A stretch of DNA of 64,000 nucleotides from Xylanibacter rarus. Its GTDB lineage: Bacteria; Bacteroidota; Bacteroidia; Bacteroidales; Bacteroidaceae. Positions within the stretch are counted from its first letter, which is position 1; each line of letters starts with the position of its first letter. The stretch is from assembly GCF_001275135.1 (NCBI RefSeq), contig NZ_LFQU01000001.1, positions 186,001 to 250,000 of the forward strand, read 5' to 3'. Below, one piece after another: positions 7,523-59,383 of the stretch. The notes below the pieces were generated by a model. That model was not told the DNA's origin, did no database searches, and saw nothing but the letters and a program-made list of their open reading frames with translations. A program made the position numbers and the translations under genes.

Positions 7523-8213
7523 AAAAAGTTTTTTATAAAAACTCGTCACTCGTCACAATGCTGCTTAATTAGCTGACTGACAGGTGGTTAAAGTGTGATG
7601 AGTTGGACTCTTAACTCGTCACATGGGGCTTTTTGGTGGATTTTTTAGGAGTTAAAGCAGATTCTTTTTGGGAGTTGGAGTAGTTAAAGGAGTTATCGCT
7701 CACAGGGGTGAGCAAGGAGTTAAAGTCATTAGTCTTGTTGATAGTAAAAGTAGGGACGTACCACAGGTGCGCCCGCAGCCCGATTACGTGTAAATTTTAT
7801 AGCCGGCAATATCATTTTGATGAATAATGTGGATTTATTGCTGTCCCAAGGATTCGTAGGCATATTGATGTAATTGTCTGTATAACAGATATTTATTCTT
7901 GATTATATGTTGCGGAGGATTTTTTCGATAATGCGTAATTTGGACACACCTGGGGTGTGTCCTTACAGGGGTGTGTATGGTAAAAAAGTGCGTATTTACG
8001 TCAATCGACGGCAGTAATAAGATGAGCCGAAGTCAATCTAAATCATGAAATTGGCTGTTTGAAGTCAACCAGAATCAAGAAACATCAACATTTTTTTGTT
8101 GCAGATGACGGATGTGATGAGTTGAAAATTCAACTCGTCACACCATAACATGTTGCCTGTCAGCAGGTTAAACCCAAATGTGATGAGTGACGAGTTTTTT
8201 AAAAAAACTTTTT
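7523..8213 (+). repeat. Inverted-arm intergenic element, copy A (long interior)
   Basis: The left arm (7523-7622) starts AAAAAGTTTTTT, continues with the tandem CTCGTCACTCGTCAC, a spacer with CTGACAG, and a hairpin GTGATGAGTT-N8-AACTCGTCAC. The right arm (8114-8213) is the same in reverse, with hairpin GTGATGAGTTG-N6-CAACTCGTCAC and end AAACTTTTT. Both arms are 100 bp. The interior is about 490 bp, against 56-107 bp in the other copies. It keeps the core GAAGTCAACCAGAATCA near 8060-8080 but also carries extra sequence with GGAGTTAA-type repeats and the palindrome GGACACACC/GGTGTGTCC. No target duplication is visible at the flanks. Confidence 0.85.
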
Positions 8214-8245
8214 GCGTTGATGACAACAGACTGCGACTTTACAGC

Positions 8246-8377
8246 AACCATATCCTTTTTATAATATCAGATGACACATATTGTATTGTAAAAGCATACC
8301 TTTTACGTTGCGAAAGGCCACCTTTTGCGTTCTGATATGCTACCTTTCGTGTTGCAAAAAGGCATCTTTCGTGTTGC
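8246..8377 (+). repeat. 22-bp phased A/T-tract array 1 (6 units)
   Basis: Contiguous 22-bp units start at 8246, 8268, 8290, 8312, 8334 and 8356. The clearest four (8290 onward) follow the plan (A/G)AAA-N7-CTTT(T)-N6, with unit ends such as GTGTTGC. A-tracts and T-tracts therefore alternate every 11 bp. The array begins 33 bases after arm-element copy A. There are no spacers and no coding potential. Confidence 0.8.
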
Positions 8378-8576
8378 TGTATGCGGTCTGGTGAATAGCT
8401 AAAATCCTCTTTTTGTGATAAACTCTCGTATAGGTCTTTCTGTGGCAGTTGTAACCTTTTTTACATGTTGATGATGTGCACTTTTATATTGTTCCTTGTT
8501 GTCCTTGTGTTGTATGGTAGTTGCTGTTATGAATAATAAAGAGCATGAAAACGGCTGTTGTGTCATTGTTTTTTTG

Positions 8577-8584
8577 TAATTTTG
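8577..8584 (+). promoter_or_regulatory. -7 box of cca
   Basis: TAATTTTG matches TAnnTTTG and lies 25 bases before the chosen start codon. Its position argues against the upstream alternative start at 8558. Confidence 0.6.
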
Positions 8585-8608
8585 CAGCCGCTTAGAAATT
8601 TTTTGATT

Positions 8609-10045
8609 ATGAAGTTACTGACAAACGCCGAATTGGCAAGCCTGCTTGATAAAGATATATTCCATAAGATTTCTTCTGCCGCCGATTCGCTTAACCTCGA
8701 ATGTTATGTTGTCGGCGGATATGTCCGCGATCTGTTTCTTGAAAGGCCGTCGAACGATATCGACGTGGTTGTGGTGGGCAGCGGCATACAGCTTGCCGAC
8801 GCACTGAAAAAGGAACTTGGGCGCAAGGCCAAGTTGTCGGTGTTCCGCAATTTCGGAACGGCACAGGTGAAATACCGCGACCTTGAGGTGGAGTTTGTCG
8901 GCGCAAGAAAGGAAAGCTATACGCACGACTCGCGCAAGCCGGTGGTTGAAGACGGCACGCTGGAGGACGACCAGAACAGGCGCGACTTTACGATAAACGC
9001 TCTTGCCGTGTGTCTTAACGGGCCGCGCTTCGGCGAGCTTGTAGATCCATTCGACGGAATTGCCGACATGGAAGACGGCATAATACGCACGCCGCTCGAC
9101 CCCGACATAACTTTCTCTGACGACCCGCTGCGCATGTTGCGCTGCATAAGGTTTGCCACTCAGCTTAACTTCTTTATCGAAGAGGAGACGTTCGATGCCC
9201 TTGAGCGCAACGCCGACCGCATAGGCATAATCAGCGGAGAGCGCATTGCCGAGGAACTCGACAAGATAATGATGACCAAGACGCCGAGCAAGGGCTTCGT
9301 TGACCTGCAGCGCTGCGGTCTGCTTCAGCGCATACTGCCCGAGCTGGCTGCCATGGATATGGTGGAGACAAGGCAGGGAAGGGCGCACAAAAACAACTTT
9401 TATCACACGCTTGAGGTGCTAGACAACGTGTGCAAGCACTCTGACAACCTGTGGCTGAGATGGGCTGCGCTGATGCACGACATAGGCAAGCCGAAGACCA
9501 AGCGATGGGACCAGAAGATAGGATGGACTTTCCATAACCATAATTATATAGGCGCAAAGATGGTGCCCGAGATATTCAGACGACTGAAACTGCCGCTCGA
9601 CAGCAAGATGAAGTATGTGCAGAAGCTCGTAAACCTGCACATGCGGCCTATCGTTATTGCCGACGACGTGGTTACGGACAGTGCTGTAAGGCGACTGCTT
9701 AACGATGCCGGCGACGACATAGACGACCTGATGATGCTGTGCGAGGCAGACATAACGAGCAAGAACGAGGTGCGCAAGCGCCATTTCCTCGAGAATTTCC
9801 GCATCGTGCGCTCTAAGCTCCACGACCTGAAGGAGAAGGACTATAAGCGCCTGCTGCAGCCCTGCATCGACGGAACAGAGATAATGGAGATGTTCAACCT
9901 TAAGCCTTCGCGTGAGGTTGGCGAGCTGAAGAAGGTGCTGAAGGATGCCGTGCTTGACAACAAGGTGCCCAACGAGCGCGAGCCGCTGATGCAGCTGCTT
10001 ATGGAGAAGGCACGTGAAATGGGACTTTGTCAGGATAAGGCTTGA
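8609..10045 (+). CDS. cca: CCA tRNA nucleotidyltransferase with HD domain
   Basis: This enzyme adds or repairs the 3' CCA end of tRNAs, which is needed here because the tRNA gene at 13-86 lacks an encoded CCA. The 478-residue protein has the class II nucleotidyltransferase head: GGYVRD at 36-41, the metal-binding DID at 50-52, then RRDFTINALA. The tRNA-binding middle domain includes DPLRMLRCIRFATQLNF. A C-terminal HD domain has LMHDIGKPKT followed by a histidine-rich stretch (TFHNHNYIGA) and may act as a phosphohydrolase. I chose ATG 8609 because the promoter lies at 8577-8584. Confidence 0.95.
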   Translation: MKLLTNAELASLLDKDIFHKISSAADSLNLECYVVGGYVRDLFLERPSNDIDVVVVGSGIQLADALKKELGRKAKLSVFRNFGTAQVKYRDLEVEFVGARKESYTHDSRKPVVEDGTLEDDQNRRDFTINALAVCLNGPRFGELVDPFDGIADMEDGIIRTPLDPDITFSDDPLRMLRCIRFATQLNFFIEEETFDALERNADRIGIISGERIAEELDKIMMTKTPSKGFVDLQRCGLLQRILPELAAMDMVETRQGRAHKNNFYHTLEVLDNVCKHSDNLWLRWAALMHDIGKPKTKRWDQKIGWTFHNHNYIGAKMVPEIFRRLKLPLDSKMKYVQKLVNLHMRPIVIADDVVTDSAVRRLLNDAGDDIDDLMMLCEADITSKNEVRKRHFLENFRIVRSKLHDLKEKDYKRLLQPCIDGTEIMEMFNLKPSREVGELKKVLKDAVLDNKVPNEREPLMQLLMEKAREMGLCQDKA

Positions 10046-10288
10046 CAAAGGTGCTGTCGTTTCCGGTAGACCGGCCTTGCGCTTTGCCATGCAATGCCGG
10101 TGCTGAAGGTATCGGCTGAATGTAAATCTTTTTATTTTTCGCAGACGTTTGGCGCCTCTACATCGCCAACGCCCGCGACGCAAAGGTATTTCTGACAGAA
10201 AACGGTCTAAAAACGATGGTTTGGTTAAGTGTCTGACGGGCAGCATTTTAATGTTTTATGCAGTATGAGTTTTCTTTTCCAAAAATGC

Positions 10289-10420
10289 AAAATGTGGCAT
10301 CTTGCAGTGTAAAACCTATCCTTTTAGAGGTCAAAATGTCGCCTTTTGCGTTCTAATTTCACCCGTTTGTGTCTCCAAAACAGGCTGATTTTATATACGA
10401 AACTGCACTTGGTGTGAATT
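10289..10420 (+). repeat. 22-bp phased A/T-tract array 2 (6 units)
   Basis: Units start at 10289, 10311, 10333, 10355, 10377 and 10399. Each begins with a short A run (mostly AAAA), and most have a T run 11 bases later, for example AAAATGTCGCCTTTTGCG at 10333. No arm element is adjacent, so the array exists independently of that element. Confidence 0.78.
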
Positions 10421-10781
10421 AATCTTAAATTGTTGGTCCTACAGCGTTGTGTGTTTTAACATATTTTTGTTATCTGCTTTCTGTTTCGTCAAAAACAAAT
10501 GTCCTGATTTTTTACCGCTTTTTGTGCCGCGTACCGGCAGCGTGTTTTGTCCGAATAGCGCGATAATTATGTGGAAAGCGTTGCCATGCGCTGCGTTGCA
10601 TGTATGCTTCGTTTTGTAATTATTTTTCGTTTTCAGGCCTTGTGCGCCGCATTGCGTGCATAGCTTTAAATTTTGACGCGCACACTGTTCAAAATGTTTT
10701 TGTTAATGCTACTTACAGTGAATTAGAGTTAAAACACAATAATTATCATTTAACCTTAATGTAATATTCAATAATAATATG

Positions 10782-10789
10782 TACATTTG
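10782..10789 (+). promoter_or_regulatory. -7 box of the RND efflux operon
   Basis: TACATTTG matches the Bacteroidetes -7 box. It leaves a leader of about 85 bases before the start codon at 10880. The -33 box is not clear. Confidence 0.5.
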
Positions 10790-10879
10790 CATCTCGAAAA
10801 CTACCGGTGTGAAAATAGTTTTCAAAATATGATATAAGCAAATTAGAAATAATAGTATAAAAATTTTAGGAAAATAGGT

Positions 10880-12076
10880 ATGAAAAGAAACAAATTTTTA
10901 TTGCTTGCATTTGCTGTTGCCGCAATGTTAACATCGTGCGGGGGCAAGCAGGGAGGAAAAATGGGCGACAATGAGTTCGCTGTGAGGACAATAGAGACGC
11001 AGACCGCGAATCTCCAGTCTTCTTATCCTGCATCTATCAAGGGCGTCCAGGACGTGGAGATCCGCCCGAAAATTTCAGGATTCATAACAAAACTTTGCGT
11101 AAGAGAAGGACAGACCGTTAAGCGCGGTCAGCTGCTGTTCGTGATTGATAACGTAACTTATGCCGCAGCAGTGCGCCAGGCTAAGGCTGCCGTTAACTCA
11201 GCCAAGGCTCAGCTCAACACAGCAACTCTTACATACGAGAATAGCCAGAAGTTGTTCAAGAACAACGTAATCGGTTCTTACGAACTGCAGTCTGCCAAGA
11301 ACAGCTACGAGTCTGCTAAGGCAGCTCTTGCACAGGCTCAGGCCAACTATGTATCTGCAAAGCAGAATCTCGACTTCTGCTATGTTACAAGTCCGGCCAA
11401 CGGTGTAGTAGGCGATCTGCCTTATAAAGTCGGTGCGCTTGTAAGCTCTTCTAATGCAGAGCCGCTTACAACAGTGTCTGACATTAACTCAATGCAGGTT
11501 TACTTCTCAATGACTGAGAAAGACCTCCTCGACATGACAAAGACAGCCGGCGGACTCCACGCTGCAATAAAGGATTATCCTCCTGTTAAGCTGCAGCTTG
11601 CCGACGGTACAGTATACGGACATGACGGACGTGTGGCTGCTGTCAGCGGAGTAATCGACCAGAGCACAGGTTCTGTGTCTATTCGTGCCGACTTCCCCAA
11701 CCCTGAGCATCTGCTCAAGAGCGGCGGTTCAGGAAGCATCGTCGTGCCTCATGCAAGCTCTTCTGCCATCGTTGTTCCGCAGGAAGCTGTCGTACAGGTT
11801 CAGGACAGATACTTCGTTTATATCGTAGGAAAAGACAATAAGGTTAAGTATAGCGCCGTTACCGTAAACCCCAACAACGACGGTAAGAACTATATTATCG
11901 AAAGTGGTCTGAAGGCCGGCGACAAGATCGTTGTTAAGGGTGTTACCACCTTGAAGGACGGTATGCAGATAACACCGATAACAGAGGCTCAATATCAGGA
12001 GAAACTGAAGAAGACAAGCGAGATGGGCTCGCATCAGAACGACCTGAACAAACTGAAAGAAGACCTTACAAAGTAA
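10880..12076 (+). CDS. RND efflux periplasmic adaptor (AcrA/MexA type)
   Basis: The protein links the inner-membrane pump to the outer-membrane channel. It has 398 residues with a lipoprotein leader; lipobox LTSC gives Cys20. A lipoyl/barrel-sandwich half-motif (about 57-95: PKISGFITKLCVREGQTVKRGQ) leads into a helical hairpin rich in Ala and Gln (about 100-165). The second lipoyl half follows (CYVTSPANGVVGDLPYKVGALV), then the beta barrel and membrane-proximal domain. It is the first gene of a three-gene operon with the pump (12184) and channel (15413). Substrate range cannot be deduced. Confidence 0.96.
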   Translation: MKRNKFLLLAFAVAAMLTSCGGKQGGKMGDNEFAVRTIETQTANLQSSYPASIKGVQDVEIRPKISGFITKLCVREGQTVKRGQLLFVIDNVTYAAAVRQAKAAVNSAKAQLNTATLTYENSQKLFKNNVIGSYELQSAKNSYESAKAALAQAQANYVSAKQNLDFCYVTSPANGVVGDLPYKVGALVSSSNAEPLTTVSDINSMQVYFSMTEKDLLDMTKTAGGLHAAIKDYPPVKLQLADGTVYGHDGRVAAVSGVIDQSTGSVSIRADFPNPEHLLKSGGSGSIVVPHASSSAIVVPQEAVVQVQDRYFVYIVGKDNKVKYSAVTVNPNNDGKNYIIESGLKAGDKIVVKGVTTLKDGMQITPITEAQYQEKLKKTSEMGSHQNDLNKLKEDLTK

Positions 12077-12183
12077 ATCAGGTCGCCGGGCTCTGCGGCG
12101 TATGCAGGCGTCAGAGTGAATGCTTATGACGCCACTTGCCCTCAGCCTTACAACCTCATAAACAAAAGTAAAACAGAAAAAAC

Positions 12184-15100
12184 ATGAGATTAGATAACTT
12201 TATAAAACGCCCGGTGCTGTCTACGGTTATCTCAATATTGACAGTCATCCTGGGTCTTATCGGATTGGTGTCGTTGCCTATAGAGCAATACCCTGACGTT
12301 GCGCCGCCAACGGTGCAGGTAAGTGCCAACTATACGGGAGCCAATGCCCAGACCGTGCTCAACTCGGTTATCGTGCCGCTTGAAGAGCAGATCAACGGTG
12401 TGGAAGGCATGACATATATGACATCTACGGCAACGAACGAAGGTTCGGCCAGAATTACGGTGTTCTTTAACCAGGGTATGAACGCCGACATGTGTCAGGT
12501 AAATGTGCAGAACCGTGTGTCGCAAGCATCAGCCCTGCTGCCGGCCGAAGTTACAAAGGCCGGTGTGACGGTTGAAAAACGACAGACTTCAACCGTGCTC
12601 CTTATGGCCATCAAGGGAGACGCAGGCAGATACGACGAGAAGTTCTTGCAGAACTATGCCGACATCAACATCATTCCTGCCGTTAAGCGTGTAAGCGGTG
12701 TAGGTGGATGTGAAGTTATGGGTGCCAAGACTTATTCAATGCGTATTTGGCTCGACCCCGTAAAGATGAAGAATTACGGCCTTATGCCGACAGATATTTC
12801 TAATGTACTTGCCGAGCAGAATATTGAGGCTGCTCCCGGTAAGTTTGGTGAGCAAAGCGACAACCAATATGAATATACAATACGTTATAAAGGACGTTTG
12901 CAGACTCCTACCGAATTTGAGAACATGGTTATCTCAAGCGACGCAAACGGCAACACTATCCGTGTTAAGGATGTTGCACGAGTAGAGCTCGGCGGACTTT
13001 ACTATAACGTTACTTCAAAGGTTAACGGTCAGCCGGCCGTCATGATGATGGTTACACAGACCGCTGGTTCTAACGCTACTCAGATTGTAAACGATATCAA
13101 GAAGGTTATCGACGAACAGCGCACTATGTTGCCTCCGGGCGTTGAGATTGTATATATGCAGGACGTTACAGAGTTCCTTTATGCATCAATGGCCGACCTT
13201 GTTCATACTCTGTTCGAGGCATTCGTGCTTGTGTTCATCGTGGTTTACTTCTTCCTGCAGGACTTCCGCTCTACACTTATTCCGCTTATCGCGGTGCCGG
13301 TGTCATTGGTCGGTACGTTCTTCTTCCTGTATGTATTTGGCTTCTCGCTCAACCTGCTTACGCTGTCTGCGTTAGTGCTTGCCATCGCGATTGTGGTCGA
13401 CGACGCCATAGTGGTCGTCGAGGCCGTCCATGCTAAGCTCGACCTTGGATACAAGTCGGCACGCCAGGCCTCTATCGACGCGATGAACGAAATCTCTGGA
13501 GCCATTATTTCTATTACGCTTGTGATGTCGGCCGTGTTTATTCCTGTGTCGTTCATCGGCGGAACTTCAGGTACGTTCTACAAGGAGTTCGGTATAACGA
13601 TGGCTATCTCAATCGTAATTTCGGCTATCAACGCTCTTACGCTTTCACCGGCATTGTGTGCGATATTGCTGAAGCCGAAGAACGAAGACGGCACAGTGCG
13701 CAAGATGTCAATGATTGACCGCTTCCATACTGCATTCAATGGCGCATACGGTAAGGTGCAGGACAAGTATACCAAGTGTGTCCGCAAGATAGTGGAGAAA
13801 CCGGTTATCGCAATAATTGCTGTGCTCATAGGTGTTGCTGCTCTGGTAGTTACTGCTATGAACACAAAGACTGGTCTTGTGCCTGACGAGGATACTGGTA
13901 CTGTATTCTGTACAGTGTCAACGCCTCCTGGAACCAGTCTTGAGAAGACCAACCTCGTTATGGATCAGGTTGACTCCATGCTTACTACCAACCCGGCCAT
14001 CGAGAACATCCTCCGTATCACCGGTTATAACTTCATTTCAGGACAAGGTTCAAACCAGGGTACGTTCATTGTCAAGCTGAAGTCGTTTGAGGACCGTGAC
14101 AAAGAAGAAGGATTCATGAAGTATTTCGATGTACACAGCATGGGTTCTAAGATGGTGCTCGGAATGATTTACAAGCAGACTGCTTCAATCAAGGGCGCAC
14201 AGATTTTGGCCTTCCAGCCGCCTATGGTGCAGGGATTCTCTGCAACCAACGGTTTGACATTCTCTATGCTCGACCGTACCGGTGGTGACGTGAATGCGTT
14301 CTTTAACATTACTCAGAAGTTCCTTGCAGAACTCAACCAGCGTCCTGAGATAGCTACGGCTATGACGTCATACAACTCTCAGTATCCGCAGTATATGATT
14401 GATGTTAATGTTGCAAAATGTAAGCAGAGCGGCATCGACCCGAACACCGTGCTTACTGCAATGCAGGGATACTATGGAGGTCTGTATTCTTCAAACTTCA
14501 ACTCATTCGGTAAGCTTTATCGTGTAATGATCCAGGCAGATCCGAAGATGCGTGAGGACATCAAGAGTATGAACAATGTATATGTAAGAACTGCAAACGG
14601 CATGGCTCCTATCAACGAGTTTGTAACAATGACCAAGGTTTACGGACCTCAGGAGATTGCACGTTTCAACCTCTTCACATCTATTGACATCAACGCCACT
14701 GCAGCAGACGGCTACTCTTCTGGTGACGCTATCCGTGCCATCGACGAAGTGGCTAAGCAGACTCTGCCTACAGGATATGGTTACGAGTTCTCTGGTCTGA
14801 CACGTTCAGAGCAGGAGTCTAGCAGCTCTACGATGATTATCTTCGCACTCTGTTTGACATTCGTTTACCTTATCTTGAGTGCACAGTATGAGAGCTATCT
14901 CGTTCCGCTGTCAGTGATTCTTTCTATTCCGTTCGGTATTGCCGGAGCGTTCGTCTTCACAGACCTGTTCGGAAAGAACAACGACATCTACATGCAGATT
15001 GCGTTGATTATGCTTATCGGACTTTTGGCCAAGAACGCCATCCTTATCGTGCAGTTTGCTCTTGAGCGCCGCCGCACCGGTATGGCATTGTCGTGGGCAT

Positions 15101-16798: not shown

Positions 16799-16894
16799 GT
16801 TTCTTAAGTCATTGCCGGCGCTGCGCCGATGCTGACAGCACGATGACATTGCGCCGGGATGATGACGGTTATAACATAAATTAGAATTGATAAT

Positions 16895-17945: not shown

Positions 17946-18254
17946 AAAAAGTTTTTCTTAAAAAACTCGTCACTCGTCACAATGCCACATAAGTCCCTGA
18001 CAGACAAATGTTTATAGCGTGACGAGTTGCCGCTCCAACTCGTCACATCCTGGCTGAAGATGCCATTTTAGCCGAACTTAACAAGGAAAACACCTGCTTG
18101 AAGTCAACCAAAATCAGGAAAAAAATAATGTTTTGTCCTTTATTGAGCATGATGTGATGAGTTGAAACTGCAACTCATCACACCGTAACGTCTTGTTTGT
18201 CAGTGTGTTATGGCCGTATGTGACGAGTGATGAGTTTTTTATGAAAATATTTAT
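17946..18254 (+). repeat. Inverted-arm intergenic element, copy B
   Basis: The left arm is 17946-18046: AAAAAGTTTTTC tip, CTCGTCACTCGTCAC, CTGACAGACAA, then hairpin GTGACGAGTTG (18019-18029) with CAACTCGTCAC (18036-18046). The right arm is 18154-18254, with hairpin GTGATGAGTTG/CAACTCATCAC and the inverted GTGACGAGTGATGAG near its end. Each arm is 101 bp and the interior is 107 bp. The interior contains GCCGAACTTAAC and CTTGAAGTCAACC, shared with the other copies. It lies between convergent genes. Confidence 0.9.
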
Positions 18255-18278: not shown

Positions 18279-18328
18279 TGATTTCGGTTGACTTCAAACA
18301 GACCTTTCACTGATTAAAGTTTACTCCG
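18279..18328 (-). repeat. Free copy of the arm-element core
   Basis: On the minus strand this stretch contains TTTGAAGTCAACCGAAATCA, almost identical to the core of copies A and B. It is in reverse orientation just outside copy B and has no arms of its own. It suggests the core is a separate repeat or that copy B is composite. Confidence 0.6.
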
Positions 18329-33439: not shown

Positions 33440-34498
33440 ATGAAAAAAACTTTATTCAGTTTCTTTTTGCTGATGTCAGCATTATGTGTCAGCGCGCAGA
33501 TTAAGATTGTCGACATGACCGACTCCAGTACGGTGCATGCCGCGAGTGTGTTTATTTCGGGCAACCGCTGCGTGGGCGTTAGCGGAGCCGACGGCCTTTT
33601 GCCTCTGCCAAAGGGATATAAGGGCAAGGTTACGGTTAATCATATCAACTATTATGAAAAGGAGTTTCTTGCAGATACTGTCAGCAGCGGCGTTGTGATG
33701 CTGAAGCCACGTGCATACGCAATACCTGAAGTCGAGGCCATGGTTGGCGAGCCTGATTATCTTGTGATATCTGCCTATTGCAGAGCATATATATATACCG
33801 ATTCTGTGCCGACTTCTTTTCGTGAGGGACTTTATGACTATTATTTGCCTATCGGCAGTGTCGGTTCCGAGGAACATCCGAGCCTGTCATCTCTCCTTGA
33901 GAGACTTATCGGCAAAGGAAGGGTGAGATGCAAGACGCGTTCGGAGAAAAATGTACGCAAAGAGGGTGAGAGTTACTATTCTTCATTGCCGCTTTTAAGC
34001 TGGTATTACATGCTGCTTGATCGTTTGCCAAAATCAGACATTGTTACAGACAAGGCTTCTGACAAGGTCGTATCCCGCGGATGGAAGGGTAGTGTCTTAG
34101 GACTGAAAAATGATACAGTGAATAAGACGTTTACTGCATATTGCGACAGTGCGTATACCGGAGCGGACAGTCTTACAGTGAAATTCTTTGGATATAAGGT
34201 TCGCTTTATAGGCTGTAAAGAAGGCGAGGTGTACAGCACAAAGTATGGTCAGCCCAAGCTCAGCAGTCTTTTGAGGCGTTATTATTATTTGAACGCAAAA
34301 GGCAAAGCACCGGGAAAAAATCCAATGACATCTATTGATATGTATGAGGAGCTTTATGTCACTGGCGTGAGATATGCCACCAAGGCAGAAAGGAAGGCTG
34401 CCATGAAGGACAAAACTGCCGAGCCGCTTGTTGTTCCGGCTGATGTTCCGCCGCTCAGCAAGCCGCTTGAAGAGGCCGTAAGTCAGATGAAACCGTAA
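33440..34498 (+). CDS. Secreted protein with carboxypeptidase-regulatory-like N-terminal domain
   Basis: The protein has 352 residues with a signal peptide (1-19, ending CVSA-Q). Residues about 21-95 look like a carboxypeptidase D regulatory-like beta sandwich (SSTVHAASVFISGNRCVGVSGADGLLPLPKG... VNHINYYEKEF), as found at the N terminus of TonB-dependent receptors. Here no barrel follows. The remainder is of unknown fold with several Tyr-rich stretches. No catalytic motif is visible. The stop codon overlaps the left tip of arm-element copy C. Homologues in Bacteroidales are annotated only as hypothetical, as far as I recall. Confidence 0.78.
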   Translation: MKKTLFSFFLLMSALCVSAQIKIVDMTDSSTVHAASVFISGNRCVGVSGADGLLPLPKGYKGKVTVNHINYYEKEFLADTVSSGVVMLKPRAYAIPEVEAMVGEPDYLVISAYCRAYIYTDSVPTSFREGLYDYYLPIGSVGSEEHPSLSSLLERLIGKGRVRCKTRSEKNVRKEGESYYSSLPLLSWYYMLLDRLPKSDIVTDKASDKVVSRGWKGSVLGLKNDTVNKTFTAYCDSAYTGADSLTVKFFGYKVRFIGCKEGEVYSTKYGQPKLSSLLRRYYYLNAKGKAPGKNPMTSIDMYEELYVTGVRYATKAERKAAMKDKTAEPLVVPADVPPLSKPLEEAVSQMKP

Positions 34499-34799
34499 AA
34501 AGTTTTCTTAAAAACTCGTCACTCGTCACAACGCTGTATAACTTTCTGTATTGCAGTATGTTACGGTGTGACGAGTTGCCACGGCAACTCGTCACACCAT
34601 GCTTAATTAAGGACAAAATATTATTTTTCCTGATTTAGGTAGACTTCAAGCAAGTGTTTTACTGGTTAAGTTCGGCTAAAATGGCATCTTCTGCCAGACT
34701 GTGACGAGTTGAAACTCCAACTCGTCACGCTATAAACAATTGTCTGTCAGGGTCTTATGCTGGAATGTGACGAGTGATGAGTTTTTGCGAAAACTTTTT
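34497..34799 (-). repeat. Inverted-arm intergenic element, copy C
   Basis: The left arm (34497-34595) has the tip AAAAAGTTTTC, CTCGTCACTCGTCAC and a long hairpin GGTGTGACGAGTTGCC/GGCAACTCGTCACACC (34565-34598). The right arm (34701-34799) has hairpin GTGACGAGTTG/CAACTCGTCAC (34701-34728), CTGTCAG and GTGACGAGTGATGAG. The core GAAGTC(A/T)ACC reads on the minus strand, and the right arm matches the left arm of copy B, so this copy is inverted relative to B. The element starts on the stop codon of the preceding gene. Confidence 0.9.
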
Positions 34800-49883: not shown

Positions 49884-49970
49884 AAATGCGTTGTTTCATT
49901 TTTTTGTTGTCTGGCTTTTGAGGATATTCTGACAAATGCGTCGCTCCTTGACATCTCAGTAACTCATTGC

Positions 49971-50654: not shown

Positions 50655-50677
50655 CTTTATGCTGTTGTTTTATGTGG

Positions 50678-50685
50678 CAAAGATA
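50678..50685 (-). promoter_or_regulatory. -7 box of mtnN
   Basis: The minus strand reads TATCTTTG, matching TAnnTTTG, 24 bases before the start codon. Confidence 0.6.
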
Positions 50686-50765
50686 TAAAGAATTTGCGAC
50701 ATATCAGCGTGCCGCCGGCTTATAGGAGGCAAAAAATCTCTTAGAATGTGTGGCGGGCAGGCGCA

Positions 50766-51260: not shown

Positions 51261-51280
51261 GTCGAGTGTTATGCCGGATA

Positions 51281-51832
51281 TTACGATTTTTTTATGTTGA
51301 AGGTCGTAAGCTGCTGTATCACGTGGCTTATACGGTTGCTTGATGACATGGAGGAAAAGTCGCTGCGGCTGCTCGAAAGATCAGATACCGACGCTTGTAT
51401 TCCTAGATTAGCCATCTCTGCGTCTTCAAATTCTTTTTTCAGGACATCAGACACTCCTGCTGCGTATGTACTTATCACTTCGCCGTTTGTAAGCGTCAGC
51501 GTCAGTGTTTGGTTAAACATAGCCTTGTCTTCGTATCTGCGTGTTTTTTTTCCAAGGTCTATCAGGCTCTGTTCAAAGCCTGCAATCCTTATTGAGATTA
51601 CCGGATATATTCCTTTCTTATACAGAAGCTGAAGACCTCCAAGTACAATTTCTTCAGTGTTGGATGCCTTAAATTCAAGATCTTTTGTCCTGTAATAATA
51701 AGTACCTCCATCACTAAGGCCCTCTTCAAACTCATACGGCTCGTCTCCTGAATTAATTCCGGCATAAACATTTAATGCGGCAAATGCGAATATCAATGCC
51801 ATTGATATTCTGTTTAATAATGACGTTCTCAT
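51281..51832 (-). CDS. Upstream part of the split secreted protein
   Basis: The frame gives 183 residues: a signal peptide (1-24), then a region with EIVLGGLQLLYKKGIYPVISIRIAGFEQSLIDLGKKTRR and a Ser-rich linker (about 150-172, SDLSSSRSDFSSMSSSNR). It ends directly after the A7 run. Alone it would be a small secreted protein lacking the C-terminal domain. A -7 box lies at 51900-51907. Confidence 0.65.
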   Translation of the reverse strand: MRTSLLNRISMALIFAFAALNVYAGINSGDEPYEFEEGLSDGGTYYYRTKDLEFKASNTEEIVLGGLQLLYKKGIYPVISIRIAGFEQSLIDLGKKTRRYEDKAMFNQTLTLTLTNGEVISTYAAGVSDVLKKEFEDAEMANLGIQASVSDLSSSRSDFSSMSSSNRISHVIQQLTTFNIKKS

Positions 51833-51899
51833 AAATATTAGTTTTAAAATAATGTAACCTATAATAACGCGTTACTGTATGCCAGGACAACGCTCTTGG

Positions 51900-51907
51900 C
51901 AAAGATA
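51900..51907 (-). promoter_or_regulatory. -7 box of the split secreted gene
   Basis: The minus strand reads TATCTTTG, matching TAnnTTTG, with a leader of about 60 bases. Confidence 0.5.
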
Positions 51908-52088
51908 ATACTTATATAGGAAAAAACAGCCTGACGGGGTCCGAATATGTGCAAAATATATGAATTTTGTTTCTTTCAGAGTGCCGGTAAGGCCGGACTG
52001 CGCTAAAATGTTCTTCAGAATGATGCGGAGTAGTTGAAAAAATATTACTTTTGCGTACTTGAAAACAAATCATATTTTATATCCTCTT

Positions 52089-53534
52089 ATGGTTAAAGTC
52101 TATAAATTATTGATAATAGCGCTGTCGCTATTGCCGTTGTATGTTTTTGCCGATATTACCGTGGCACCGGTATTTACTGATAATATGGTGATACAGCAGG
52201 AAATGCCAGTATATGTATGGGGAAAGGCTCCTGCCGGCGAGAAGATAAAAATAAGTTTTATGTCTCAGAGATTCAGTACGGTAGCCGATGCCAACGGTGA
52301 ATGGATTGCCGTGCTTAAAGCCGTGAGCGCTACTAAGAAACCGCAAAAACTTGTGGTAAGTTCAAGGTCAGGAAAAATTGTGCTAAGCAATATTCTTGTT
52401 GGTGAAGTGTGGCTCGCCTCAGGACAGTCAAACATGGAATATTCCATGAATAACCACCCGCACCATGCCCGTCCAAAGAAAGACGACCCGGAGGTGCTGT
52501 ATAAGGAATTTAAGGCGGCAGACAGTCCGATAATACGTACAATGTATGTAGAGTGTTCAAATAATGGCGAGATACTGCCTACTGCCGGATGGAAGATGCT
52601 GTCAGAAGAAAGTCTTGCCCCTGTTTCTGCCGCAGGATATTTCTTTGCAAAGAATCTGTCTGACAGTCTTGACGTACCAGTCGGACTGATATCCTCGTCG
52701 TGGGGAGGATCGATGATTGAGTCGTGGATGCCTGAAGAAGCGTTCAAGGGCTCGCAGCAGTTGAATGATGGATACGCCAACGGCAGCTATTATGGTCTGC
52801 CTGTTGCCGATCATTACCGCACGATGATAGCTCCGCTGGCTCCATTCTCTATGCGTGGATTTCTGTGGTATCAGGGCGAGGCAAATGTCCTGGACCAAAG
52901 AGGGGTAGGGTATGATGTCAAGCAGCGTGCGCTGATTGACGGCTGGCGAAAGGCTTGGCATGATGACGCCATGCCGTTTTATTTCGTCCAGCTGGCACCT
53001 TATCTCTATTCAGACCGCAAGGGCGATGAGAACGGATTGCCGTGGGATGCCCTTCCTAAATTTTGGGAGGAGCAGGCGTCTTGTCTTGATGTACCCCATA
53101 CGGGTATGATTGTTATTAATGACCTGGTGGATAATCTTAAAGATATACATCCGCCATATAAATGGATAGTCGGAAAGCGTCTGGCCCTGCTTGCCTTAAA
53201 TAAGACCTATGGGCGAGATGTCGTAAGTTCGGGACCTACATTTAAAAGCATGGAAGTTGAAGACGATAAGGTCATATTGACATTTGAAAACGCTGACGGT
53301 CTGAAGACACGTGACGGAAAGATGCCCGACAACTTTAAACTGAAAAACACAAAGAACCGCTACAACACGGCCAAAGCCCAGATTGTAGGCAACAAGGTTG
53401 TGTTAAGTTCAAAAACGGATATGGCAAGACCCGTGACGGTGCGTTATTGCTGGAGCGACAGCTCTCAGCCCAATCTGTGCAATGGTGCAGGTTTGCCTGC
53501 CGCGCCGTTTAGGGCGACGGAAAAAATAAAGTGA
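52089..53534 (+). CDS. Sialate O-acetylesterase (SGNH hydrolase)
   Basis: The secreted esterase has 481 residues with a signal peptide (1-21, ending YVFA-D). The nucleophile is in GEVWLASGQSNMEYSM. Other family motifs are SSWGGSMIESWMP and GFLWYQGEANV; the Asp/His pair near the C-terminal half lies in LVDNLKDIHPP. It removes O-acetyl groups from sialic acids or, in many Bacteroidetes, from plant glycans such as xylan. No sialidase or glycan genes are adjacent. ATG 52089 gives the signal peptide; the upstream TTG does not. Confidence 0.93.
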   Translation: MVKVYKLLIIALSLLPLYVFADITVAPVFTDNMVIQQEMPVYVWGKAPAGEKIKISFMSQRFSTVADANGEWIAVLKAVSATKKPQKLVVSSRSGKIVLSNILVGEVWLASGQSNMEYSMNNHPHHARPKKDDPEVLYKEFKAADSPIIRTMYVECSNNGEILPTAGWKMLSEESLAPVSAAGYFFAKNLSDSLDVPVGLISSSWGGSMIESWMPEEAFKGSQQLNDGYANGSYYGLPVADHYRTMIAPLAPFSMRGFLWYQGEANVLDQRGVGYDVKQRALIDGWRKAWHDDAMPFYFVQLAPYLYSDRKGDENGLPWDALPKFWEEQASCLDVPHTGMIVINDLVDNLKDIHPPYKWIVGKRLALLALNKTYGRDVVSSGPTFKSMEVEDDKVILTFENADGLKTRDGKMPDNFKLKNTKNRYNTAKAQIVGNKVVLSSKTDMARPVTVRYCWSDSSQPNLCNGAGLPAAPFRATEKIK

Positions 53535-53664
53535 CATTAATGCTGATACGGCGCCATGCCGGCAGCAAGCAACGAATACATCTTAATTTTATGCAAAGAG
53601 TTGACTGATGTCATGAATTTTGTGTATTTTTGCACTCAGATTTAATTTAAAAACGTAAGTATCA

Positions 53665-56163
53665 ATGAAAACATGGAAACAATACCTGCCCGACGTGCTG
53701 GTCATATTGCTGTTCGCGGCTATTTCTTTCGCATACTTCTTTCCTGCCGATATTGAAGGAAAGATTCTTTTCCGCCACGACTCGGCTGCAAGCAAGGGCC
53801 TCGGGCGAGAACTGTCAGAACACAGGGAGAAAACCGGAGAGCAGACTCGCTGGATGAACTCCGTGTTCAGCGGCATGCCGACATATCAGACGGCGCCTTC
53901 ATACAGCAGCACCGACGGACTGGGCCAGGTTGTAAAGGCTTATCATCTTTTCCTTCCTGAGAACGTGTGGTATGTCTTTGCTTATCTGCTGGGATTCTAT
54001 ATCCTTCTTCGTGCGTTCGATTTCCGCCAGTCGCTGGCGGCTTTGGGCTCCATAATATGGGCTTTCTCGAGCTATTTCTTCATAATCATAGCCGCAGGAC
54101 ATATCTGGAAGGTTATGGCTCTGGCATATCTCCCGCCTATGATAGCCGGCGTGGTGCTTGCCTACAGGGGCAAATACCTGTGGGGACTAATTGTCACGGC
54201 GCTGTTTACGGCCTTTGAGGTCAACGCCAACCACGTGCAGATGACGTATTATTTCCTGTTTGTCATCCTGTTTATGGTCATTGCCTATCTCGTTGATGCC
54301 ATCCGTAACCACAAACTGGCTCATTTCGGCAAGGCCACGGCTGTGTGTGCTGCCGGTGCCATAATAGGTATATGCATCAACCTGAGCAACCTTTATCACA
54401 CATGGGAGTACAGCCAGGAATCGATGCGCGGCAAGAGCGAACTGGTGAAAAAGAACACTGCAAACCAGACAAGCAGCGGACTCGACCGTGACTATATAAC
54501 GCAGTGGAGCTACGGCATAGGCGAGACATGGACTCTGCTCGTGCCCAACACCAAGGGCGGCGCATCAATGCCTTTGGCACAGAACAAAACTGCCATGGAA
54601 CATGCCGACAACAACTTTATAGATATATATCAGCAGCTCGGACAATATTGGGGTGAACAGCCCGGAACGAGCGGCCCCGTTTACGTCGGGGCATTCGTGC
54701 TCATGCTGTTCGTCTTAGGCCTGTTTATCGTCAAGGGACCTATGAAGTGGGCCCTGCTTGCCGCAACGGTGCTTTCTATACTGCTGTCATGGGGTAAGAA
54801 CTTCATGCCGTTCACCGACTTCTTTATCGACTATATCCCGATGTACTCAAAGTTCCGCACGGTGGCGTCGATACTTGTCATTGCCGAGTTTACTATACCT
54901 CTGTTGGCAATGCTTGCATTGAAGAAGATTGTCGACGAGCCTGAAATCCTTACTCAAAAGATAAAATACGTTTATGCAAGCTTCGCCCTCACCGGCGGCA
55001 TCGCCCTGTTGTTTGCCGTTATGCCTACAATGTTCTTCTCAGACTTCATTTCGTCTGAAGAGATGAGGGCATTGCAGCAGATACCGGCCGACTATCTTAA
55101 CCCGCTGCTCGCCAATCTGCGCGAGATGCGTATAGCCATGTTCACTGCCGACTGCTGGCGCTCGTTCTTCATCATCGTCATCGGCACTCTCTGCCTGCTG
55201 CTCTATAAGGCAAAGAAACTGAAAACAGAATACATGGTGGGAGCGCTGATAGTTCTCTGTCTTGTTGACATGTGGCAGGTCAACAAGCGCTACCTCAACA
55301 ACGACATGTTTGTCAACAAGAGTGAGCGCGAGGCACCGATAGAGATGACCGAGACCGACAAGATTATCCTTCAGGACAAGACCGACTTCGGCAGTTACCG
55401 TGTGCTCAACCTTGCCTCTAACACGTTCAACGAGAACGAAACTTCTTACTATCACAACAGCATAGGCGGATACCACGCCGCCAAGTTGCGCCGTTATCAG
55501 GACATGATAGACGCCTACATCGCTCCTGAGATGCAGAAGCTCGTGCCCGCAGTGGCTGAGGCCGGAGGCGACATGACCAAGATCAACGGCGACAGCATCT
55601 ATCCGGTGCTCAACATGCTAAACGCAAGATATTTCATATTCCCGCTTCAGAGCGGACAGACCGTGCCTTTGAAGAATCCGTATGCTTACGGCAATGCATG
55701 GTTTGTAGACCGTATAACCTATGTAAACAGCGCCAACGACGAAATAGACAGAGTTGGAAAGATTGACCTGCGCCATGAGGCAGTGGCCGACGCCAAGTTT
55801 AAGAGTCAGCTGAAGGATGCCAAGAAGCAGGGTGGTGTGTCGGTTGTCAAGCTCACATCATATTCTTCTAACCACCTGAAGTACAGCGTAAACTCTGATG
55901 CCGGCGGTGTGATAGTGTTCTCCGAGGTGTATTATCCCGGCTGGACAGCCACAGTCGACGGCAACCCCGTCGAGCTCGGACGTGTCAACTATCTGTTGCG
56001 TGCCATCAATGTCGCACCGGGCAAGCACAACGTAGAACTGATGTTCTATCCTAAGTCTGTCAGCACAACCGAGACCATAGCATATATAGCTTATGCCGTA
56101 CTTATCCTGGCGCTTCTGTTTGTTGTATATATTGAAATGAAAAAGAAAGGGAAGGTTAAATGA
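53665..56163 (+). CDS. YfhO family membrane protein
   Basis: The protein has 832 residues and about twelve membrane segments in the first 530 residues. A long soluble region (about 545-805) then contains IVFSEVYYPGWTATVDGNPVELGRVNYLLRAINVAPGKHNVELMFYPK, the hallmark YfhO C-terminal stretch, and a last membrane segment near the end. YfhO proteins resemble GT-C glycosyltransferases and are thought to decorate cell-envelope polymers in other bacteria. Its stop overlaps the start of fkp (ATGA), so the two genes are probably co-expressed. Confidence 0.9.
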   Translation: MKTWKQYLPDVLVILLFAAISFAYFFPADIEGKILFRHDSAASKGLGRELSEHREKTGEQTRWMNSVFSGMPTYQTAPSYSSTDGLGQVVKAYHLFLPENVWYVFAYLLGFYILLRAFDFRQSLAALGSIIWAFSSYFFIIIAAGHIWKVMALAYLPPMIAGVVLAYRGKYLWGLIVTALFTAFEVNANHVQMTYYFLFVILFMVIAYLVDAIRNHKLAHFGKATAVCAAGAIIGICINLSNLYHTWEYSQESMRGKSELVKKNTANQTSSGLDRDYITQWSYGIGETWTLLVPNTKGGASMPLAQNKTAMEHADNNFIDIYQQLGQYWGEQPGTSGPVYVGAFVLMLFVLGLFIVKGPMKWALLAATVLSILLSWGKNFMPFTDFFIDYIPMYSKFRTVASILVIAEFTIPLLAMLALKKIVDEPEILTQKIKYVYASFALTGGIALLFAVMPTMFFSDFISSEEMRALQQIPADYLNPLLANLREMRIAMFTADCWRSFFIIVIGTLCLLLYKAKKLKTEYMVGALIVLCLVDMWQVNKRYLNNDMFVNKSEREAPIEMTETDKIILQDKTDFGSYRVLNLASNTFNENETSYYHNSIGGYHAAKLRRYQDMIDAYIAPEMQKLVPAVAEAGGDMTKINGDSIYPVLNMLNARYFIFPLQSGQTVPLKNPYAYGNAWFVDRITYVNSANDEIDRVGKIDLRHEAVADAKFKSQLKDAKKQGGVSVVKLTSYSSNHLKYSVNSDAGGVIVFSEVYYPGWTATVDGNPVELGRVNYLLRAINVAPGKHNVELMFYPKSVSTTETIAYIAYAVLILALLFVVYIEMKKKGKVK

Positions 56164-59000
56164 AAAAGCTTTTGTCATTGCCGCCAAATCTGGTAAACTG
56201 TTTTCATGATGTTACCGGACACGACCGCAGCGAATGGTTCTGCACCAACGACCCCATAGGGCATAAGCTCGGTTCGGGCGGCGGTTCAACATGGCTGCTG
56301 GAGGCCTGTTATGCCGAAAGTTCAGACGGCAAGAGCTTCGACGAGTGGCTTGCCTCAGACAGACGCCTGCTGCTGCATGCCGGCGGACAGAGCCGCCGGT
56401 TGCCGGCCTACGCCCCGTCGGGCAAGGTGCTGACGCCCGTGCCGGTGTTCCGCTGGGAGCGCGGACAGAGGCTCTCGCAGAATCTTCTGTCGCTGCAGAT
56501 ACCCCTTTACGACAAGATAATGAGCTGCGCGCCCGACAACATGCACACCATGATTGTCAGTGGCGATGTGTATATACGTGCCACTCAGCCGCTTCAGCCT
56601 ATACCAGAGGCCGACGTGGTGTGCTACGGCCTGTGGCTCGGCCCTGAGATAGCCAAAGACCACGGTGTGTTTGTGTCAAGACGCGAAACCCCGTCGGTGC
56701 TTGAGTGCATGATGCAGAAGCCTTCGGTGAAGACTCTCGGCGAACTGCTCAAGGATCATTTCTATCTTACTGACATAGGCGTGTGGCTGTTGAGCGACCG
56801 CGCCGTCAAGCTGCTCATGCAGCGCTCAAAGCGCAACGGCGAGCGCATCAACTACGACCTCTATTCTGAGTTCGGCTGCTCGCTCGGCACAGATCCTTCG
56901 GTTAAGGACGACGAGCTCAACAGTCTGAGCGTAGCCGTGTTGCCTTTGCCAGGCGGCGAGTTTTATCATTTCGGCACAAGTCATGAGATACTGTCGTCGA
57001 CACTTGCGATACAGAATCTTGTCAACGACCAGCGCGAGATAATGCATCACTCGCTGAAGCCTCACCCAGCCATGTTCGTGCAGAATGCATGCGTGGGTAC
57101 GGCCATCACTGAGCGCAACCAGAATCTTTGGATAGAAAACAGCTATGTGCCTTCGTCGTGGACGCTGGCGCATGAGAACATCATAACGGGCGTGCCCGAA
57201 AACAATTGGACAATAAGCCTTCAGCCGGGACAGTGTGTTGACATTGTGCCTGCCGGCGAAGACGAATATATAGTAAGGCCTTACGGATACGACGATAAGT
57301 TCCGCGGCGACCTTCACGACCTCAGCGTTACGTTCCTCGGACGTCCGTTTGCCGAATGGGCTGCCGAGCGCAACATCGACATAGACACGATAGACGGAAA
57401 TGCCGACCTGCAGTCGGCACGCATATTCCCGGCATGTGCCGACGTGAATGATGCCGGACTCGTATTGCGCTGGATGCTCTCTGAGCCGGAACTCAAAGAG
57501 GGTGCCGAAATATGGAGCGAAAGCCGCAGGCTCAGCGCCGACGACATATCGGCTGAGGCAGACCTGATGAGGCTTCAGCAGCAGCGCGACCTGCTGCGTG
57601 CTGCCAACTGGCAGGCTCTGGCACGCAACTATGAGCATAGCGTGTTCTATCAGGTTGACCTTGACGATGCCGCACGCGACTTTGCCAAGTTCAACATTCC
57701 TCAGCCGGATGCGATAAGCGACAATGCGCCGCTGCTGACACGCATACACGACTCAATGTTCCGCTCTGAGCTGGCACGTATCAGTGGCAACGAATATCAG
57801 AAGAATGAAGACAAGGCATTTGCCCTGTTGCGCGACGGACTGACACAGCAGGTGCTCACCGAGAAACAGAGTCCGCGCATGTCGGTATACGGCGACCAGA
57901 TTGTGTGGGGCCGCAGCCCCGTGCGCATAGACATAGCCGGAGGATGGACCGACACGCCGCCTTACTGCCTCATGGAGGGCGGCAGCGTTGTCAACCTTGC
58001 CATCGAGCTTAACGGTCAGCCGCCGCTGCAGACGTATGTCCGTCCGTGTAAGGAGCCGCACATCGTGCTGCGCAGCATCGACCTCGGAGCCATTGAGGAG
58101 GTTACCACATACGAGCAGCTTGCCGACTATCATCATGTGGGCAGTCCGTTCTCTATACCCAAGGCCGCGCTGGCCCTTGCAGGCTTTGTGCCCGCCTACT
58201 GTGCCGAGAAGTTCGGCTCGCTCGAAAGTCAGCTGAAGGCTTTCGGCTGCGGCATAGAGCTGACACTGCTCTCTGCCATTCCAGCAGGCAGCGGACTGGG
58301 CACGAGCAGCATGCTTGCGTCTACCGTTCTCGGTGCGCTCAACGACTTCTGCGGCCTGGCATGGGACAAGAACGAGATAGGCCACCGCACGCTTGTGCTT
58401 GAGCAGCTGCTCACAACCGGAGGCGGATGGCAAGACCAGTTTGGCGGAATACTGCAGGGCGTAAAACTGTTGCAGACAGGCCGCGGCTTCGACCAGTGTC
58501 CTACGGTGCGCTGGCTTCCGTCCGACTTGTTCACACAGCCTGAGTACACGCCTTGCCACCTGCTCTATTATACGGGCATAACACGCACGGCAAAGAACAT
58601 CCTGGCAGAGATAGTGCGCCGCATGTTCCTCAATCAGAGCGACGAGCTGACACGTCTGCGCGAGATGAAACAGCACTCGCTCGACATGTATGAGACCATA
58701 CAGCGTGCCGACTTCAATAAGATGGGTATGCTTGTGCGCAAGACATGGCTTCAGAATCAGGCCATCGACAGCGGCACCAATCCCGAAAGCGTTCGCCGCA
58801 TAACAGAACTTATAGACGACCTGTGTCTTGGCTATAAGCTTGCCGGTGCAGGCGGAGGCGGCTATCTGTATATGGTGGCCAAGGATCCTGACGCGGCAGC
58901 CCGTATCAAACAGATACTCAACAGCAACAGGCCAAATGCCAATGCCCGCTTTGTCGATATGTCGCTCAGCACCAAGGGCTTGCAGGTGAGCCGAAGCTAA
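56160..59000 (+). CDS. fkp: Bifunctional L-fucokinase/L-fucose-1-phosphate guanylyltransferase
   Basis: Fkp converts free L-fucose to GDP-L-fucose in two steps and supplies fucose for surface glycans and glycoproteins of Bacteroidales. The protein has 946 residues. The N-terminal guanylyltransferase part has HAGGQSRRLPAYAPSGK (73-89) and extends to about 430. A linker leads to a C-terminal GHMP kinase domain starting with SPVRIDIAGGWTDTPP (about 585). Its ATP-binding IPAGSGLGTSSML is near 708-720 and a Gly-rich GAGGGGYLY motif is near the end. The length matches the known two-domain enzyme. Confidence 0.95.
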   Translation: MKKLLSLPPNLVNCFHDVTGHDRSEWFCTNDPIGHKLGSGGGSTWLLEACYAESSDGKSFDEWLASDRRLLLHAGGQSRRLPAYAPSGKVLTPVPVFRWERGQRLSQNLLSLQIPLYDKIMSCAPDNMHTMIVSGDVYIRATQPLQPIPEADVVCYGLWLGPEIAKDHGVFVSRRETPSVLECMMQKPSVKTLGELLKDHFYLTDIGVWLLSDRAVKLLMQRSKRNGERINYDLYSEFGCSLGTDPSVKDDELNSLSVAVLPLPGGEFYHFGTSHEILSSTLAIQNLVNDQREIMHHSLKPHPAMFVQNACVGTAITERNQNLWIENSYVPSSWTLAHENIITGVPENNWTISLQPGQCVDIVPAGEDEYIVRPYGYDDKFRGDLHDLSVTFLGRPFAEWAAERNIDIDTIDGNADLQSARIFPACADVNDAGLVLRWMLSEPELKEGAEIWSESRRLSADDISAEADLMRLQQQRDLLRAANWQALARNYEHSVFYQVDLDDAARDFAKFNIPQPDAISDNAPLLTRIHDSMFRSELARISGNEYQKNEDKAFALLRDGLTQQVLTEKQSPRMSVYGDQIVWGRSPVRIDIAGGWTDTPPYCLMEGGSVVNLAIELNGQPPLQTYVRPCKEPHIVLRSIDLGAIEEVTTYEQLADYHHVGSPFSIPKAALALAGFVPAYCAEKFGSLESQLKAFGCGIELTLLSAIPAGSGLGTSSMLASTVLGALNDFCGLAWDKNEIGHRTLVLEQLLTTGGGWQDQFGGILQGVKLLQTGRGFDQCPTVRWLPSDLFTQPEYTPCHLLYYTGITRTAKNILAEIVRRMFLNQSDELTRLREMKQHSLDMYETIQRADFNKMGMLVRKTWLQNQAIDSGTNPESVRRITELIDDLCLGYKLAGAGGGGYLYMVAKDPDAAARIKQILNSNRPNANARFVDMSLSTKGLQVSRS

Positions 59001-59127
59001 GAATTGACAATTGAGAGTTGAAAATTATGATTTGCTTTGCCTGATTATGCGGTCATGGCATTTGTAGTTTTCGTTCTTGGTTTTCATTTATAATTATCCG
59101 TATTAACCAATTTGCGGATATAACCCG

Positions 59128-59383
59128 AAAAAGTTTTTTATAAAAACTCGTCACTCGTCACATTACAGCATAATATTCTGATTATCAGAATGTTGTAGTG
59201 TGACGAGTTGCTTGCTCAACTCATCACACAACGATATTTTGGGGGCGTTGATTGTGCTTTCCTGATATTGGTTGACTTTAAGCGTGATGAGTCGGAAACG
59301 CAACTCATCACACAATAACGCGCTGTATTTCAGGGCGTTATGTGCCGTTGTGATGAGTGACGAGTTTTCGTGAAAAACTTTTT
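59128..59383 (-). repeat. Inverted-arm intergenic element, copy D (short interior)
   Basis: The left arm (59128-59227) has the tip AAAAAGTTTTTTATAAAAAC, CTCGTCACTCGTCAC and hairpin GTGACGAGTTG/CAACTCATCAC (59200-59227). The right arm (59284-59383) has hairpin GTGATGAGTCG/CAACTCATCAC and GTGATGAGTGACGAG, ending AAAAACTTTTT. Both arms are 100 bp; the interior is only 56 bp and carries the core in reverse orientation (TCCTGATATTGGTTGACTT). This copy lacks part of the interior found in B and C. Confidence 0.9.

Follow-up and report, generated by a model that had tools for sequence, protein, structure and literature searches.

Elements composed of two inverted arms of about 100 bp are present in four copies (A to D) in a 64,000-nucleotide stretch of the Xylanibacter rarus genome (C1:186001-250000 of a 3.79-Mb draft in 85 contigs; hereafter, the window), and are probably dispersed origin-like binding sites for a resident primase-helicase of the VapE family. 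This reading, drawn from sequence comparison, is based on the architecture of the arms, the helical phasing of their distances, the copying of the elements as units, their linkage to VapE genes, the genome-specific cognate units, and a correlation between the unit and the C-terminal domain of VapE. In the text, genomes are given as G0xx (G000 is the genome of the window), fetched loci as Lxxx, and contigs as C with the genome named; statements on published systems follow excerpts of the papers cited.

Architecture of the arms and the genome-wide set

The four copies, noticed in a first-pass annotation of the window, were confirmed to within 1-3 bases (Table 1), and their tip, tandem unit, CTGA/TCA spacer, and hairpin agree with the description given there. 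The repeat array reported as TGACGAG is real, but its unit is corrected to CTCRTCAC (fourth base G or A), and the CTGACAG of the spacer, although present, is one case of the dyad TAA-n4-CTGA-n3-TCA-n5-TTA. About eight unit copies had been counted per element, as is expected because each arm carries four. In 76 full-length arms, with coordinates counted from the first base of the tandem unit, the tip is A5-n-T5 at -19 to -9, an A-run lies at -5 to -1, the tandem is CTCRTCACTCRTCACA at 0-15, the dyad lies at 24-48 (centre, 36), and the hairpin is made of GTGAYGAGTTG (53-63), six loop bases, and CAACTCRTCAC (70-80). The alignment over tandem unit, dyad, and hairpin is free of gaps in 74 of 77 arms; each of the remaining three has a single additional base within or next to the hairpin loop. 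At the 21 free positions, the agreement between any two arms is 0.309 (0.318 is expected from the column composition), and it is no higher between the left arm and the right arm of the same element (0.27). The free positions are thus randomized between arms, so the copies are old or fast-drifting, with the binding positions held.

A whole-genome search with a model of the arm, as the annotation had proposed, was performed with a sequence-only profile built from 77 arms, and far more than four copies were found. At least 94 arms in G000 scored 49.9 bits or more and the next match scored 30.7 bits; the count is a lower bound, since 150 of 2225 first-look candidates were scored. Eighty-two of these arms form 41 measured inverted pairs, and the remaining 12 are unpaired or truncated at a contig end. 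The sequence CTCGTCACTCGTCAC, with at most one mismatch, occurs 75 times in G000 (once for the reversed control). Contigs C14, C41, C42, C47, and C49 begin or end inside or near an element, and the end of C14 and the start of C47 carry a nearly identical arm; thus, the assembly breaks at arms.

The space between the arms of the 41 pairs ranges from -28 to 2285 bp, where -28 denotes one hairpin common to both arms (three pairs); the interiors of 56 to about 490 bp reported before are those of the copies in the window, the genome-wide range being wider. In the 37 pairs under 300 bp, the arm distance is periodic, with a best period of 10.4 bp (R = 0.82; free scan from 5 to 20 bp). A period of 10.5 bp was spotted by eye first and tested afterwards: for the 20 distinct lengths, R was 0.74 at 10.5 bp (p about 2e-5), and with one value per cluster (13 values) R was 0.75 (p about 6e-4). 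The fixed spacing within the arms, the randomized free positions, and distances following a period of about 10.4 bp together point to protein-binding sites on duplex DNA. The array of protein-binding sites proposed in the first-pass annotation is supported on these three grounds.

Linkage of the arms to VapE genes

VapE-type genes are frequent in these genomes: PF05272 was carried by 19 of the 22 genomes searched, and at least 527 loci encode a VapE relative, of which the best 80 were fetched. VapE adjoins the arms or lies between them in six examined genomes (G000, G004, G007, G034, G066, and G069). The G000 gene on C11:31349-33463 has an inverted arm pair at its 3' end, overlapping the stop codon; in G007, 67 bp separate the end of an arm pair from the first ATG of VapE; arms immediately adjoin the gene in G034 and G004; and in G066 and G069 two arms bracket the VapE-family gene in a similar neighborhood. 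Scanning with the dyad, independently of the unit, gave 55 arm-like matches in the 107 kb within 700 bp of VapE, seven in the 388 kb lying over 1 kb from it, and two in 173 kb inside the gene, the within-locus control being scored by the identical rule. Such a match within 700 bp was present at 38 of the 80 loci, four of which (L157, L165, L219, and L230) are doubtful. A stricter scan for at least three unit copies was positive for 17 of 86 loci and for 1 of 430 Markov shuffles. Note that both versions of the scanner were written after examples had been seen; thus, the yield near VapE is not blind. Of eight loci from plasmid and phage collections, four have arm matches close to VapE, some of them in records of Bacteroides finegoldii and Parabacteroides distasonis, so the link extends beyond Prevotellaceae.

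Differences in the repeat word between species

The exact arm word had no match in 59 relatives, 35 of them of the same genus. This result suggested an element of a single species, an idea that was overturned when the profile search recovered the arm plan with different units. The arm profile, at E 0.1 or better, matched 32 of 60 genomes of the genus including G000, many of the matches being weak or partial, and full-length paired matches were found in several congeners. Nine profile-matched loci were read, and most of them have the same skeleton with other words, such as CTCTTCAC, CCRTCAC, AACGTCAT, and CTATTCAC. Four words (U1 to U4) were then counted in eleven genome handles, with VapE-side copies included; G004 and G087 gave identical places and were therefore treated as one genome. 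U1 occurs 82 times in G000, once in G069, and in none of the other nine handles; the main counts of U2 are 9 (G084), 5 (G086), and 6 (G088), those of U3 are 6 (G004/G087) and 14 (G085), and those of U4 are 22 (G066) and 23 (G069). The word beside VapE is the word found elsewhere in the same genome in G000, G066, G069, G084, G085, G086, G088, and G004. Exact U1 sites number 80 in G000 and none in the 35 same-genus genomes; thus, the sets turn over.

A comparison at similar positions was given by a PGM/PMM-family gene, which adjoins VapE in G000 (with the LrgAB pair between), L152, L154, and L155. Between G000 and the latter three loci, this gene is 85-87% identical and VapE is 58-59% identical, and the words beside VapE are U1 (G000), U2 (L152 and L154), and U3 (L155).

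The VapE protein and its putative specificity for the word

The VapE protein encoded on C11 of G000 has 704 amino acids and matches PF08800, PF05272, and PF12990, that is, a BT4734-like PrimPol, the VapE helicase, and DUF3874. The BT4734-like primase family was named by Kazlauskas et al. 2018, and PF05272 ATPases fused to primases have been predicted to be helicases of mobile elements (PMC5862659). Over the helicase, PDB chain 7pds ('Similar to D. nodosus vapE') was matched by a profile built from 42 VapE proteins (E=3.9e-15). Among the matches listed, the closest relatives of the G000 protein are from Marseilla massiliensis and uncultured Prevotella/Prevotellaceae (58-64% identity, best segment), which points to a Prevotellaceae host.

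The relation between VapE domains and units, tested earlier on 28 loci with hand-anchored units, was then retested on 37 of 39 units with the hand anchoring omitted (the two lacking an intact open reading frame (ORF) were dropped). Unit similarity correlates with identity in every VapE domain. With the other domains controlled, the partial r for the C-terminus is 0.18 (p=0.0005), or 0.22 without the four doubtful scan matches; the values for the N-terminus, the middle domain, and the helicase are -0.09, 0.10 (p=0.033), and -0.09, respectively. By these partial correlations, word similarity tracks the C-terminal domain best. This is the prediction of the model for Rep of the Staphylococcus aureus pathogenicity islands (SaPI) and Cch2 of the staphylococcal cassette chromosome mec (SCCmec), in which the C-terminal domain recognizes repeats that adjoin the gene, the iterons of SaPI Rep lying directly downstream of its gene (PMC7581432).

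Movement and genomic placement

Copy A and C1:169116-169808 (L010) are 83% identical over 695 bp, interior included; the identity is bounded by the tips, beyond which the flanks are unrelated. From this similarity, the elements are judged to have moved as units with defined ends, in agreement with their first description as resembling miniature inverted-repeat transposable elements (MITEs). Copy C in reverse is 81% identical to copy B over 309 bp, and here the similarity continues for about 60 bp beyond one tip. Target duplications, which were not visible in the window, were likewise not in excess at 3, 4, 5, 6, 8, or 9 bp among 39 elements. For copy D, L260 was examined as a candidate orthologous empty site; it matches a neighboring gene but not the fucokinase on the other side, and thus did not establish such a site.

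When ORFs are taken to represent genes, both neighbors are known for 38 elements: convergent ORFs surround 19 of these, tandem ORFs 15, and divergent ORFs 4 (the 39th has no neighbor on one side). None of the 39 lies wholly inside a selected ORF. Among the pairs examined, only VapE (G066 and G069) or an ORF with no Pfam match (L013) was found between arms, Y1 being the transposase type sought. The partner sought in the first-pass annotation, which had been expected to be a transposase, seems instead to be a PrimPol-helicase of the VapE family. PF01797 (Y1 transposase) had no match in G000 and was present in 5 of 14 control genomes, other transposase families not having been searched genome-wide.

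At L013:2042-4488 (G000:C1:339441-341887), the arms are 2.4 kb apart and bracket an ORF of 714 amino acids (2173-4317); by eye, this ORF resembles an outer-membrane beta-barrel protein and may be captured cargo.

Window elements and neighboring features

Coordinates of the arms in the window are given in Table 1.

Table 1. Arms of the four elements in the window
Feature	Position	Strand	Remarks
Copy A, left arm	7523..7623	+	Tip, tandem CTCRTCAC, dyad, hairpin unit pair
Copy A, right arm	8112..8213	-	90.6 bits, top-scoring arm listed for the genome
Copy B, left arm	17946..18047	+	
Copy B, right arm	18153..18254	-	
Copy C, left arm	34497..34597	+	Tip overlaps stop codon of upstream ORF 33440-34498
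Copy C, right arm	34700..34799	-	
Copy D, left arm	59128..59228	+	
Copy D, right arm	59283..59383	-	

The tip overlaps the stop codon or last bases of an upstream ORF in three cases (window 34497, L110:6459-6464, and the L029 element). A second dispersed motif, GGTTGACTTCAA (with variants; reverse, TTGAAGTCAACC), is present beside and inside elements (window 18286-18297, 34638-34649, and 59270-59282; flanks or interiors in L009, L036, and L047). Stretches of the form AAAAGCATACCTTTTGC / TTGCAAAAGGC flank several elements (window 59412-59478 and 8279-8335, L047:300-400, and L048:100-170), and the similarity between copies B and C runs on into a stretch of this type.

The genes within 10 kb of the G000 VapE on C11 encode DHHA1, DUF4827, PGM/PMM, LrgB, and LrgA, and one further ORF has no Pfam match. 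In the one-contig genome of a congener (G024:C1; L282-L285), four VapE copies are about 95% alike, one of them sharing only 2.6 kb; all share 2.6 kb or more, and the shared stretch does not end at arms. By eye, a small ORF with cysteine pairs precedes these copies. Upstream of VapE, L282:4289-4505 and L289:4411-4627 are 96% identical, the genes being only about 70% identical. A DUF6078 gene adjoins VapE in L088 (by eye), L090 (Pfam), and L295 (annotation), that is, in two congeners and Parabacteroides distasonis, and genes for HU-family DNA-binding proteins lie just upstream of VapE in three Bacteroides records (L296, L298, and L299).

Proposed mechanism

We propose that the element is a double binding site for a self-loading VapE primase-helicase, which combines the BT4734-like PrimPol, the VapE AAA+ helicase, and DUF3874. 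The likely partner, of the two VapE genes in G000, would be that at C11:31349-33463, whose stop codon is overlapped by an element. The C-terminal domain of VapE would read the 7-8 bp unit, and each arm of about 100 bp would present four such units around the TAA..CTGA..TCA..TTA dyad. Two inverted arms could then seat two opposed assemblies on the same face of the helix, as has been proposed for the origins of SaPI and other phage-inducible chromosomal islands (PICI); VapE loaded on the two inverted sets of units would form assemblies facing each other, and the DNA would be opened and primed. The remaining elements (the set as a whole comprising 41 measured pairs plus 12 additional arms) would be non-autonomous origin-like copies, which may have required VapE for their spread and retain its binding code. 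An initiator with its own origin is, in our analysis, the most economical account.

Several observations weigh against this account. The interiors are no AT-richer than the flanks (mean 0.545 and pooled 0.597 for 36 interiors of 10-600 bp; flanks, 0.587), whereas in the origins shown for Escherichia coli PICI an AT-rich stretch always lies between two sets of iterons (PMC6092414), a middle part that the present elements lack. In other species, the 17 pairs adjacent to VapE show no significant phasing (14 distinct lengths; p=0.12 at 10.5 bp), and a period of 14.9 bp fits them equally well; nor is phasing significant for the U4 pairs (p=0.13) or the U2/U3 pairs (p=0.10). The dyad scan found no arm match at 42 of the 80 VapE loci, and the stricter scan missed the G000 locus itself (L110) and is therefore insensitive. 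The second VapE gene of G000 (C37) has no convincing arm, and G071, a genome that is 92% complete, has an arm pair with no VapE match. The words also cross genomes: U2 matched three times in G004/G087 (one pair), once in G085, and once in G069; U3 matched once in G086; and unpaired U4 matches were found in G000 (2), G084 (4), G089 (2), and G090 (9), the reversed control in G089 also giving 2. The PGM/PMM gene is not in the fetched flank of L153 or L156, and the middle domain of VapE still shows a weak association (p=0.033, or 0.051 for the reduced set). We know of no domain in VapE for strand transfer or for joining a copy to a new site.

Alternative explanations

The main rival is a hidden transposase: an ordinary enzyme would have moved a MITE family, with VapE as a neighbor to the sequence or a separate, later user of the same sites. 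It would account for the discrete movement with ends at the tips, for the long inverted arms, and for the arm pair around the 714-amino-acid ORF without a Pfam match in L013. We regard it as unlikely, since the pattern is concentrated beside VapE across many different units, the unit is coupled to the VapE C-terminus, no target duplications were found, and G000 lacks a Y1 transposase (the one family searched genome-wide). Less probable still are operator-like or chromosome-organizing sites, used by VapE or by some other protein and maintained through host selection instead of spreading. Binding positions held among randomized free positions would suit such sites, and 2 of 18 U2/U3-word loci away from VapE, both in G084, share a neighboring gene with a U1 element of G000; the unrelated flanks of near copies and the confinement of exact U1 sites to G000 among these congeners argue against them.

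We give very little credence to structured RNA elements or bidirectional terminators in 3' regions, although half of the 38 elements lie between convergent ORFs and the arms, read outward, have GAGTTTTT at their ends. Insertions are also least harmful between convergent ORFs, the arm distances are helically phased, and the changes of unit are linked to a DNA helicase. The hairpin bases pair about as often as column composition predicts, except at one pair, which is Watson-Crick in 49 of 82 arms (38 expected; Fisher p=0.018) and has C opposite A in 24 of the 82, and Rfam gave no match in the window apart from a tRNA. With so little sign of selection for pairing, such frequent C-A mismatch, and this Rfam result, the strong RNA fold entertained in the first-pass annotation was not supported, and a structured RNA was set aside. 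A viral origin was rejected, the exact arm pattern having 0 matches in IMG/VR, where only 5 of 78 candidate stretches encode a VapE-profile relative. Nor was a plasmid replicon inferred; of five VapE-bearing stretches read in plasmid records, one (Bacteroides finegoldii) looks chromosomal (transketolase, rpiB).

Implications

If the elements are origin-like sites for VapE, the arms give each VapE a predicted binding site, the natural swaps of specificity between species offer a way to decode the C-terminal domain, and the helical phasing makes a direct prediction on the geometry of the complex. The elements would also serve to test whether mobile elements can spread through replication initiation. 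A further step, which we put forward only tentatively and consider rather less likely to hold than to fail, is that an intragenomic population of mobile elements is kept by a replication initiator and not by a transposase: a vertically inherited PrimPol-helicase would copy or maintain the arm pairs, enzyme and word would co-evolve, and the whole set would be replaced when the word changes. The elements are possibly a new class of intragenomic element. A search of full-text, mostly open-access literature, judged from titles and the beginnings of abstracts, gave no published description of them and no DNA target for proteins of the BT4734/DUF3874 type.

Comparison with known systems

With the replication module of SaPI and PICI, the present system shares a VapE-type helicase with a primase, short repeats in two sets beside the initiator gene, and a repeat specificity linked to the C-terminal part (PMC7581432, PMC6092414). 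It differs in that the repeats form inverted arms of fixed spacing and that dozens of gene-free copies are scattered through the genome; unlike in a whole PICI, the 10 kb around the G000 VapE yielded neither an integrase nor a packaging gene. The new part is these dozens of gene-free copies per genome, with words changing together with VapE. A classical MITE of a DDE transposase is similar in unit movement and defined ends and different in that no target site duplication was found here. MITEs are also described in another member of the Bacteroidales, Porphyromonas gingivalis (PMC4596501).

Repetitive extragenic palindromic (REP) sequences offer two further comparisons. The CGTC-tagged REPs also contain CGTC, are often head-to-head dimers, and have no known dedicated transposase (PMC3733652); however, their stems are of 8-9 bp with loops of 4-5 bp, whereas the 11-bp hairpin here is part of an arm of about 100 bp, and the unit here changes between species. 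In the REPIN/RAYT system (REP doublets forming hairpins and REP-associated tyrosine transposases), as here, a vertically inherited gene accompanies a same-genome population of short inverted-pair elements (PMC8049555, PMC3116915), and RAYTs are described as single-copy and vertically inherited while still replicating REPINs (PMC8049555). Membership in this system was rejected, as G000 has no Y1 transposase; the partner here would be a PrimPol-helicase, and the arms of about 100 bp look as if they are read as duplex and not as single-strand hairpins. By our comparison, REPIN/RAYT is the nearest parallel in distribution, and in plan the elements resemble the initiator-origin pairs of SaPI and PICI.

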